A DNA stretch of 64,000 nt, taken from NCBI RefSeq assembly GCF_024494575.1, contig NZ_JANHDO010000002.1, forward strand, positions 496,001-560,000. Direction: 5' to 3'. The translations under genes were made by a program, and so were the position numbers. Below the pieces are notes generated by a model. The model was not told where the DNA came from, made no database searches, and was given only the letters and a program-made list of their open reading frames with translations. Origin of the DNA: Halorubrum salinum (lineage in GTDB: Archaea; Halobacteriota; Halobacteria; Halobacteriales; Haloferacaceae). Of the stretch, positions 41,936 through 45,133 are shown in pieces (position 1 is the first letter of the stretch; each line of letters opens with the position of its first letter).

Positions 41936-42619
41936 GTGCTATCGGTCGAGCTGCACGCGCACTCGGCGCTCTCGTACGACGGGCGCGACCCGGTCGACCT
42001 CCTCTTGGAGCAGGCGGCGGGGGTCGGCCTCGACGCGCTCGCCGTCACGGACCACGACGAGATCGACGCCAGCATCGAGGCGGCCGAGAAGGCCGCCGAC
42101 TACGGGCTCGTCGGCATCGTCGGCATGGAGGTGACCTGCGCCGCGGGCCACGTCCTCGCGTTCGGCATCGACGAGCGCGTCGAGAGCGGCCTCCCCTTCG
42201 ACGAGACGCTCGACCGCATCCGCGAGATGGGCGGGATCGCGGTCGTTCCCCACCCCTTCCAGAAGTCCCGCCACGGCGTCGCAGCTCACATCTCCGACGA
42301 GCAGCTGGCGAGCGCCGACGCCCTCGAAGTGTACAACTCCCGGCTGTTCACCGGCCGCTCGAACCGACAGGCGGAGACGTTCGCGATACGCCACGGGCTC
42401 CCGATGACCGCCGGAAGCGACGCGCACATCTCCGAGATGGTCGGACAGGCGGTGACCGAGGTCGCGGCCGAGGAGCGGTCCGCCGACGCGATCCTCGACG
42501 CGATCCGGGAGGGGCGGACCAGCGTCGTCGGAAAGCGGACGCCGTGGCGCGTCTCGCTCCGGCAGTTCGGCGGCGGCGCGAAGCGACGCGCGCTCCGCGC
42601 GCTCCGGGGGCTCCGCTGA
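41936..42619 (+). CDS. PHP-domain phosphoesterase
   Basis: 227-aa PHP-domain protein with metal-ligand motifs HAHSALSYDG (near residue 8), AVTDHDEIDA, VVPHPFQ and TAGSDAHISEMVG. It is of the TrpH/YciV type, nucleoside 3',5'-bisphosphate or RNase-like phosphoesterases, though substrates vary. The GTG start at 41936 is set by the TATA. The last 15 residues are basic (AKRRALRALRGLR). It is 5 nt upstream of the asparagine-synthase-like gene, so the two are co-transcribed. Confidence 0.83.
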   Translation: MLSVELHAHSALSYDGRDPVDLLLEQAAGVGLDALAVTDHDEIDASIEAAEKAADYGLVGIVGMEVTCAAGHVLAFGIDERVESGLPFDETLDRIREMGGIAVVPHPFQKSRHGVAAHISDEQLASADALEVYNSRLFTGRSNRQAETFAIRHGLPMTAGSDAHISEMVGQAVTEVAAEERSADAILDAIREGRTSVVGKRTPWRVSLRQFGGGAKRRALRALRGLR

Positions 42620-42624
42620 CGCCG

Positions 42625-43857
42625 ATGACGCGGACGCCCACGCTCCGCGGCGCGCCGGTCGGTCGCGTTCGGGCGGCCCTCGGCACGCGCGACCCGCTTC
42701 CCGGCGGCCGCGGCTTCGCGGGGCGGATCGCCGATCCCCCCGGCCGGTCCGGCCCCGTCCTCGTCCGCGACGTGCTCGGCCGCGAGCCGATCTTCGTCGA
42801 ACGCGACGCGACGCCGGAGACCGACCGTGACCCACCCACTTCCGACCGCGATCCGACCGCTCCGACCAACTGGAGCTTCGACCGGCACGATCTCGACGAT
42901 CCGGTGTCAGTTCCCGCCGGCGGCGTCGCGTCCGCCGAGGGGACGGAGCGCGTCTGGACCCTCCCCGACGACGGACCCGTCGATCCGGACGCCGGGCAGG
43001 CGGCCGTCGACACCGCGCTCGACGACGTCCTCGACGACCTCGCTCGCGACGGGGGGTCGGCCGACGGAGCCGACGGAGCCGGCTCGGTCGGCGAGAGCGG
43101 GGCCGGCGACCTCGCCGTCGCGTTCTCCGGCGGCGTCGATTCCGGCGTCGTCGCCGCCGCGGTGCCGAATGCTCCCCGGTACGTCGCCGGATTCGAGGGA
43201 TGTCACGACGTCGCGGCCGCGCGTGAGGCGGCCGCGGCGGCGGACCGACCGGTCGACCTGCGCGTCGTCGAGATCACACACGAGGAGCTGGTCCGCGCCG
43301 CCCGCGCGGTCGCTCACGCCACGGGGCGACGGAACCCGATGGACGTCGCCATCGCGGTCCCGCTGTACCTCGTCGCCGAGGCGGCCGCCGACGACGGGTT
43401 CGATCGGATCGCGGTCGGACAGGGGGCGGACGAGCTGTTCGGCGGCTACAGCAAGGTCGTCGATCCGGCCGACGACCACCGCGTCGACGCGGACACCGTC
43501 CGGGGGGCGCGGACCGAGACCGTCCGCACGCTCCCGGACCAACTCGAACGGGACGTGCTCGCGATCCGGGCCGCGGGAGCGGAGCCGGTCGCTCCCCTCC
43601 TCGACGACCGGATCGTCGACGCCGCGCTCGCGCTCCCGGGGGCGCTTCTGTCCGCCGGCGGCGAGCGGAAAATCGCCCTGCGCCGCGCGGCGGCGGGACG
43701 CGTCCCCGAATCGGTCCGAACGGCCGACAAGAAGGCGGTCCAGTACGGGACGTACGTCTCGCGCGAACTCGACCGGCTCGCGCGACGGGCGGGGTTCAAG
43801 CGTCGCATGGACGACCACGTCGGGCGGTACCTCGACGAGCTGTTGAGCGACGACTGA
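42625..43857 (+). CDS. Asparagine-synthase-like ATP pyrophosphatase with degenerate glutaminase region
   Basis: 410 aa. The C-terminal adenylating domain has the PP-loop SGGVDSGVVAAAV (about 173-185), GQGADELFGGYSKV and the KKAVQYGTY end typical of AsnB. The N-terminal half is short and lacks the catalytic Cys2 of class II glutaminases, keeping only a GPVLVRDVLGREPIFVE trace. It is thus probably ammonia-dependent or uses another amine. Its pairing with a PHP protein is unexplained, and the product is unknown. Confidence 0.78.
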   Translation: MTRTPTLRGAPVGRVRAALGTRDPLPGGRGFAGRIADPPGRSGPVLVRDVLGREPIFVERDATPETDRDPPTSDRDPTAPTNWSFDRHDLDDPVSVPAGGVASAEGTERVWTLPDDGPVDPDAGQAAVDTALDDVLDDLARDGGSADGADGAGSVGESGAGDLAVAFSGGVDSGVVAAAVPNAPRYVAGFEGCHDVAAAREAAAAADRPVDLRVVEITHEELVRAARAVAHATGRRNPMDVAIAVPLYLVAEAAADDGFDRIAVGQGADELFGGYSKVVDPADDHRVDADTVRGARTETVRTLPDQLERDVLAIRAAGAEPVAPLLDDRIVDAALALPGALLSAGGERKIALRRAAAGRVPESVRTADKKAVQYGTYVSRELDRLARRAGFKRRMDDHVGRYLDELLSDD

Positions 43858-43867
43858 GCCTCGGCTG

Positions 43868-43950
43868 AAAAAAGGCCCGTGAGGGCCGATGCTGACCAAG
43901 CCGCCGTATGGAGTACCAGTCCTACGGCCGACGCCCGATCGTTCGGGCGT
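43868..43950 (-). ncRNA. Candidate small structured RNA, about 83 nt
   Basis: Read on the minus strand: a TATA (TTTTATAA, 43973-43982) is centred 27 nt before base 43950. From there the sequence folds as stem-loop 1 (43931-43950, 8-bp stem, loop ACGA), stem-loop 2 (43903-43928, GCCGUA/UACGGC stem plus two G-C pairs, about 9-nt loop), a 15-nt single-stranded linker (43888-43902) and stem-loop 3 (43874-43887, GGCCC-UCAC-GGGCC), then six U (43868-43873) as an intrinsic-terminator-like end. It does not match tRNA, SRP RNA, RNase P or box C/D RNA. No minus-strand ORF with a credible start fits it. Confidence 0.55.
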
Positions 43951-43972
43951 CTGGTGTCACAAAGCGGCGACC

Positions 43973-43982
43973 GTTATAAAAC
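43973..43982 (-). promoter_or_regulatory. TATA box of the candidate small RNA
   Basis: The minus-strand GTTTTATAAC is one of the best TATA matches in the window. Its spacing predicts a transcript start at about 43950, the first base of stem-loop 1. Confidence 0.6.
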
Positions 43983-44177
43983 ACGGGCAGTAGTGACAAA
44001 TATAGCTGTTCTACGAGCGAAATGCTGACGATCGGGCTGTCCTCCGTCCGCTTCTTGTCGAACGATCCGATCTGCGACCCAGAGTGCCGCCGGAACTCCA
44101 CGTGTATCAGGCGAGACGATCGGAGAGGTCAAGCGGCCGGCTCGACCGCCCGGTGGAGCGCGGGTCGCCCGCTCGGA

Positions 44178-44834
44178 TCACCTGACCAGATACGGGTCGC
44201 TGCCGGCGATGAAGCGACCGAGGTCGCTCTCTCGGCGGAAGTCGGTCGACCGAAGCTCTCGGAGCGACTCGACGAGCCGGCCGGCGTCTCCGTCGCTCCA
44301 CTCCGCGGGGTCTCTGATCGGGACGACGAGCCAGCCGGACCCGAGGATCTCCTCGGCGTGGAGCGCTTCCATGTCGACGTCGGTCTTCCACGCCCGCGCG
44401 GTGTACTGCCGGAGAACGTGGTCGGTCGCTCGCGCGCCGACCGGGAGGAGAACGTGGGCAGCGATCGCCCGGAGCTCCGCGTCGAAGAACCGCTCCATGT
44501 CGGCGTAGTCGTCCTCGCTCGGCGTCCCCGCCGTCGCACACATGTGGAGGTACGAGAAGAACGAACACTCGGATCGGATCGGCGTCTCGCCGGCCGCTGA
44601 CGCGCCGTCCGGATCGAACTCCGCGATCAGCCCGGCGTCGGAAAGCGCCGAAAGGAATGCGGCCGACCACGGCTCACCGGTGAACGGGACGCCGGTCTCG
44701 ACGCCGCCGTGGACGCCGGGGTGATCGCCGACGACGTGGAAGTCCGCGTTGGCGTCGCCGTAGCCGGGGACGTACGACTGACAGTCGGGCCGCATCCCGA
44801 ACGGGTTGCGGGTCCGGTCCGTGACGTTCTGCAC
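44178..44834 (-). CDS. Uracil-DNA glycosylase superfamily protein
   Basis: 218-aa UDG-fold protein. An N-terminal NPFGMRPDCQSYVPGYGDANADFHVVGDHPG segment carries a motif-I-like GDHPGVHGG, followed by GVPFTGEPW. The C-terminal half has HVLLPVGARATDHVL. Family 4 UDGs usually have four Cys for a 4Fe-4S cluster; only three Cys (18, 92, 99 region) are visible, so the cluster is uncertain. I choose the GTG at 44834, not the ATG 51 nt upstream, because a TATA (GATATATCC) lies exactly 27 nt before it. It probably removes uracil or another damaged base. Confidence 0.78.
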   Translation of the reverse strand: MQNVTDRTRNPFGMRPDCQSYVPGYGDANADFHVVGDHPGVHGGVETGVPFTGEPWSAAFLSALSDAGLIAEFDPDGASAAGETPIRSECSFFSYLHMCATAGTPSEDDYADMERFFDAELRAIAAHVLLPVGARATDHVLRQYTARAWKTDVDMEALHAEEILGSGWLVVPIRDPAEWSDGDAGRLVESLRELRSTDFRRESDLGRFIAGSDPYLVR

Positions 44835-44856
44835 GCGAACCGATAGGCGGGCGCTC

Positions 44857-44866
44857 GGATATATCC
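44857..44866 (-). promoter_or_regulatory. TATA box of the UDG-like gene
   Basis: The minus-strand GGGATATATC lies inside the in-frame extension of the ORF and is centred 27 nt before the GTG at 44834, which marks the true start. Confidence 0.55.
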
Positions 44867-45133
44867 CGTTCGGTCCGCTCTCCATCCTCAGTCGATCTCG
44901 GTCGCCCTCGGCGACACCGGGTGCCGGTCACGGTCCGACACTCCGAACCGTACGACGCGCGAAGCGAGGCGCACGAGTCGGTAGTAATTCACATAACTTA
45001 TGGAAACGAACGGGGTTCACACGGCCTGTGATACGGATCGCTCGGTCGACCGGCCGAGTCATTTCAACATAGAGATACAAATTCACCAAACCGCACGACT
45101 GCGACGGGTTCGATACGACGTGCGCCACGGAAA

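Follow-up and report, generated by a model that had tools for sequence, protein, structure and literature searches.

Does the short stretch on the minus strand at positions 43,868 to 43,950 of the window (the whole 64,000-nucleotide stretch of the Halorubrum salinum genome that was analysed) encode a regulatory RNA, and if so, which message does it act on? An earlier note, made from the sequence alone, had proposed a new small RNA (sRNA) with three stem-loops, its own TATA box and a terminal U tract, and had suggested the unpaired linker between the second and third stem-loops as the region that pairs with target mRNAs. We consider it likely, going by the comparison of related genomes described below, that positions 43951-43868 of the minus strand are the gene of a trans-acting non-coding sRNA, which would pair with and repress the probably leaderless mRNA of a winged-helix (wHTH) regulator. 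The gene and the pairing are well supported; the repression we infer. The features of the locus are as follows.

42544..43857, plus strand: asparagine-synthase-like gene (PF00733), the convergent neighbour, outside the proposed mechanism
43868..43951, minus strand: candidate small RNA gene, shared by 51 of the 52 Halorubrum genomes and by the majority of the family's genera
43868..43887, minus strand: stem-loop 3 and six U, the putative terminator, from the fold
43888..43902, minus strand: unpaired linker, from the alignments, with GGCUUGGUCAG nearly invariant
43903..43928, minus strand: stem-loop 2, carrier of the predicted target-pairing loop, with family-wide covariation at three pairs
43911..43922, minus strand: predicted target-pairing segment GGACUGGUACUC, covarying with wHTH mRNA positions +3 to +14 in 20 genera
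43930..43951, minus strand: stem-loop 1, 9 bp with the loop ACGA, at the very 5' end, from the fold
43974..43980, minus strand: TATA box TTTATAA, from the sequence, 23-30 nt upstream of the foot of stem-loop 1
43989..44003, minus strand: upstream promoter element ATATTTGTCACTACT, conserved in the genus alignment through to the TATA box
44178..44885, minus strand: gene of the UDG superfamily (PF03167, E = 2.9e-7), the constant upstream neighbour

The gene and its conservation

The TATA box, the three stems and the six U of the earlier note were all found in place on the minus strand, except that stem-loop 1 is one pair longer and starts at 43951. On this strand, stem-loop 1 reads GACGCCCGA-ACGA-TCGGGCGTC (43951-43930), stem-loop 2 reads GCCGTAGGA-CTGGTAC-TCC-A-TACGGC (43928-43903), and stem-loop 3 reads GGCCC-TCAC-GGGCC (43887-43874) and runs into six T at 43873-43868, a tract that is missing from a few relatives. 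Promoter spacing places the predicted 5' end near 43951, and the 3' end is predicted to lie in the T tract. The 83 nt fold into the three stems with an energy of -37.9 kcal/mol, compared with -29.1 kcal/mol (sd 3.4) for shuffled sequences (z = -2.63), and 6 of 200 shuffles folded as well as the sRNA. Taken alone, this is modest support, and it is the conservation of the element, in the genus and in most genera of the family, that decides for a real element.

A Blast search with a 141 bp query found the element in 51 of the 52 Halorubrum genomes, the sole genome without a match being an incomplete assembly (79% complete). Across the class, the same approach gave nothing convincing outside Halorubrum, and because Blast was limited to the genus, structure-aware models were needed. 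A covariance model built from the genus sequences (R1) detected the element in other genera of the family, which includes both Halorubrum and Haloferax, and a second model, composed of stem-loop 2, the linker and stem-loop 3 (R2), detected it in most of them, with no convincing match outside the family. Among the named records, those of Haloferax, Halegenticoccus and Salinigranum also carry the element. The RNA was not found in genera g7, g9 and g17, and at most remnants were found in g5 and g15. The parts kept genus-wide are the promoter, stem 1, the top of stem 2 (GGACTGGTACTCC, with 13 invariant bases), the linker motif CTYGGTC and stem 3.

Compensatory changes, which the earlier note had proposed to look for in all three stems, were found in stem 2. 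In 40 sequences spanning the family this stem is paired in 96.8% of cells and shows changes on both sides at three of its seven pairs; the 30 double-change cells compare with 8.8 in shuffles, none of which (0/500) scored as high. Stem 1, paired in 96.5% of cells among 48 distinct sequences of the genus, contains few informative changes, and stem 3 is paired in 94.8% in the genus. Variation in these two stems is too limited within the genus for the alignments to prove them.

The claim of an sRNA gene with its own promoter and a U-tract end is thus upheld by the family-wide conservation, by the covariation of stem 2 and by a promoter that is conserved like the RNA itself. The promoter ATATTTGTC...TTTTATA is kept across the genus, and TTTTATA is invariant in the 51 genomes of the genus alignment. 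There is no complete ORF starting with ATG inside any of the 51 Halorubrum RNAs, which, together with the conserved promoter and terminator, points to an independent non-coding gene. The RUGAUGA, CUGA and 3' ACA motifs of box C/D and H/ACA guide RNAs are absent from 43951-43868 of the minus strand, and ARAGORN reported no tRNA or tmRNA within the window. A search of Rfam at E <= 5 left the element without a match, in keeping with the remark in the earlier note that it resembles no named RNA family, and a search of a plasmid collection gave no match either.

The upstream element ATATTTGTCRCTACT (43989-44003, minus strand) is conserved as strongly as the RNA, and a TATTGGC-like sequence occupies this place in other genera; a dedicated regulator of the sRNA promoter is possible. 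A promoter regulon defined by ATATTTGTCRCTACT was considered and rejected, as the genome has no second exact copy of it.

Complementarity to a winged-helix mRNA

Two unpaired segments of the RNA are invariant, the linker and the loop of stem-loop 2, and we looked for exact complements of both in 11 genomes. The linker complement CTGACCAAGYC was found only at its own locus and at zero to two scattered, non-orthologous sites per genome, which is fewer than for the reversed control pattern. With no recurrent complementary site in the 11 genomes, the proposal that the linker (43888-43902) is the target-pairing region had to be abandoned. This nearly invariant segment must have a role other than target pairing, and it may bind a protein. 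Its core GGCUUGGUCAG (43892-43902, minus strand) varies least among the unpaired parts of the RNA family-wide; it reads AATTGATCAT or AAGTGATCAC in the AT-rich loci L204 and L205, where the loop is unchanged. A possible pseudoknot of the linker with the stem-loop 2 loop, through GACUG and CAGUC, was rejected, as it is not conserved in Halorubrum, g4 and g13.

The loop complement GAGYACCAGTC had a match at one gene's start codon (ATGAGTACCAGTCC) in several Halorubrum genomes. The remaining matches were set aside, being mostly Glu-Tyr-Gln-Ser codons inside ORFs. The candidate target encodes a 90-residue winged-helix protein (PF13412, E = 1.4e-6), for which solved structures gave no match at E <= 0.01 and which has relatives in all 157 of the 157 genomes searched across the family. 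In this genome the gene lies on another contig, outside the window (G000:C5:42088-42357, minus strand), and its match, ATGAGTACCAGTCA, amounts to 11 bp. The covariation with this gene described below had no influence on its choice.

The loop of stem-loop 2 is complementary to positions +3 to +14 of the wHTH mRNA. The apical loop CUGGUAC (43919-43913) forms the middle of the pairing segment, and the two partners differ between groups in a matched manner: mRNAs with GTACCAG, GCACTAG and GCACTCG go with the loops CUGGUAC, CUAGUGC and CGAGUGC, respectively. In Halorubrum, all 39 of 39 genomes combine the mRNA sequence GAGTACCAGTC(C/A) with the loop segment GGACUGGUACUC. The corresponding mRNA and RNA sequences are GAGCACTAGTCC and GGACUAGUGCUC in g8, g10, g11, g12, g20 and g22, GAGCACTCGTTC and GGACGAGUGCUC in g3, and GAGCACCAGTA and GACUGGUGCUC in the other large group; in Haloferax and g4 the mRNA reads GAGCACCAC and 8 bp are retained. 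Positions +3 to +9 are complementary in 88 of 88 genomes (20 genera), with full complementarity of the 7-nt loop in 71 of the 88. Complementarity to an mRNA encoded elsewhere has therefore been kept in evolution.

A shuffle test with one representative per genus, which preserves the make-up of each column and not the relatedness of the genomes, gave 212 Watson-Crick pairs out of 240 against a shuffled mean of 194.8, and none of 20,000 genus shuffles scored as high. The outcome was again 0/20,000 when Halorubrum was removed, and when both Halorubrum and g3 were removed. Among 61 registers around the start codon (18 genera), this is the only one that exceeds its shuffles. When the changes were placed on a UDG tree, position +9 required four changes on the RNA side and four on the mRNA side, and the joint count is also four, so that all coincide. 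Position +6 showed one joint change, and position +10 showed one joint change, in g3, in addition to partnerless RNA changes in g13 and g99. Because the UDG tree is weakly supported, it is uncertain how many of the matched changes arose independently. Positions +6 and +9 are silent third codon positions (AGT/AGC for Ser and ACC/ACT for Thr); in g3, a codon change from Ser to Arg is accompanied by a change of the loop. In g99 (G414; L391 and L414) the RNA loop is two bases shorter, and the mRNA is one codon shorter at the matching place (MSTTAD for MSTSTAD).

The wHTH ATG is preceded at 24-27 nt by a TATA-like box (CTTTAC) in nearly all genomes. Given archaeal promoter spacing, this position suggests that the mRNA starts at or near the ATG, and the message is probably leaderless or nearly so. 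The wHTH promoter (ATATGTAGCYAACCTTTACCA), about 25-46 nt before the start codon in L297-L386, is unusually constant across the family, and the gene is possibly autoregulated.

Several groups fit the pairing less well. The duplex is only 7-9 bp long in Haloferax, g4, g13, g98 and g99. In g5 and g9 the mRNA retains GAGCACCAG although no RNA is detectable, so that part of this sequence must also be conserved for another reason. Downstream of the UDG gene of g15 (G158, L388), a promoter like that of Halorubrum precedes a diverged hairpin, GGTCCTGGTCC, which mismatches the g15 mRNA, GAGCACTAGTAC. The pairing prediction failed there unless this RNA is dead, and by its sequence it may be a decayed or retargeted copy.

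Proposed mode of action and competing explanations

In the mechanism that we propose, the exposed 7-nt loop CUGGUAC would serve as a seed and make the first contact with the AUG-proximal end of the mRNA. The GGA/UCC top of stem 2 would then open and the duplex would grow to 10-12 bp, covering the G of the AUG and codons 2 to 5. Such a duplex would block ribosome loading and lower the amount of the wHTH regulator. Stem-loops 1 and 3 would shield both ends of the RNA. We also lean, with less assurance, towards a wider reading: throughout the family the hairpin-loop seed of an sRNA would seal the 5' end of a leaderless mRNA, silent codons of the regulator would be held or changed in step with it, and leaderless mRNAs would thus be open to sRNA regulation at their first codons.

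The pairing evidence says nothing about the direction of the effect, and the same duplex could activate or stabilise the wHTH mRNA, for example by shielding its 5' end from decay. We regard this as unlikely, since a duplex over the start-codon G and codons 2-5 would block initiation on an mRNA that is probably leaderless, and the analogy with sRNA162, which represses its target (PMC3510493), would also favour repression. Slightly less credit is given to a conserved structured RNA with some other role, such as protein binding through the linker, with the wHTH match due to coincidence or shared ancestry. It would explain why the most constant unpaired part of the RNA has no target, and it can draw on the g5, g9 and g15 findings and on MSTS being a common protein start, so that a single start-codon match is not rare. 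It does not account for three positions with matched changes, of which two leave the protein unaltered, for a count that no genus shuffle reached, or for the restriction to a single register.

Nor do we think it at all probable that the RNA is processed from the 3' UTR or terminator region of the UDG mRNA and is no independent gene. In nearly all loci examined, the RNA does follow the same UDG-superfamily gene in the same orientation, at a distance of 170-330 nt. However, the promoter between the two is as conserved as the RNA, three loci (L204, L205 and, in g3, L206) carry the RNA without an adjoining UDG gene, no such RNA follows the UDG orthologues in other families, and the loop covaries with an unlinked mRNA. 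The base composition of L204 and L205 suggests that they are Haloquadratum-like. The neighbour on the other side of the RNA varies, being asparagine-synthase-like in Halorubrum, g20 and one g3 locus and a different gene elsewhere.

Relation to described small RNAs

Haloarchaea have thousands of catalogued sRNAs, few of which have known targets and which show little conservation. The sRNA described here is conserved across most of a family, its one target is predicted from matched mutations, not just from energy, and the predicted site lies at the beginning of an mRNA that is probably leaderless. The question of sRNA control of leaderless translation thereby becomes directly testable in Haloferax or Halorubrum. 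Literature searches by sequence and by Haloferax locus tags returned no described sRNA, and no description of the family or its target was found; as far as searched, the sRNA is new as a family.

There is a close likeness to sRNA162 of Methanosarcina mazei (PMC3510493), another trans-acting archaeal sRNA, which pairs where translation of a transcription-regulator mRNA begins and is also built of three stem-loops and an unpaired linker. It differs in being 191 nt long, in pairing through its linker and not a hairpin loop, and in hiding the Shine-Dalgarno or ribosome binding site of an mRNA with a long leader; its homologues are known from two relatives only, and natural covariation with the target is not reported there (PMC3510493). 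The Haloferax volcanii RNAs sRNA132 and s479 are likewise intergenic and act in trans on mRNAs, but their target sites, whether predicted or demonstrated, are located within ORFs and 3' UTRs and not at 5' ends (PMC6560208, PMC8155600), which has been explained by most mRNAs being leaderless (PMC6560208). Blast detected sRNA132 in no other haloarchaeon, and 22 of 27 Haloferax sRNA genes were not detected in any other species (PMC3956466).

The Haloferax homologue of our RNA (GACGCG...CCCCGC) is 111 nt long and has a 32-codon open frame from ATT. Its length and open frame, the two features on which we compare them, agree with those of sRNA_61 of H. volcanii, a chromosomal, abundant and ribosome-associated RNA of 111 nt with a 32-residue frame without a stop, for which no protein was found (PMC12482152). 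If the two are the same RNA, its expression is already known, and its family and target had not been described. A very abundant antisense RNA has also been assigned to the UDG gene HVO_RS09685 of H. volcanii, its strand given as opposite (PMC5892119), and may or may not be the same transcript.

As for the neighbour itself, models of family-4 UDG match its protein over about 35 residues only, far below the cut-off. Going by gene order on the Haloferax map, we take the Haloferax locus to be that of HVO_1038. The product of HVO_1038 is a uracil-DNA glycosylase (PMC9997560). The protein of the UDG-superfamily neighbour is widespread in the order.
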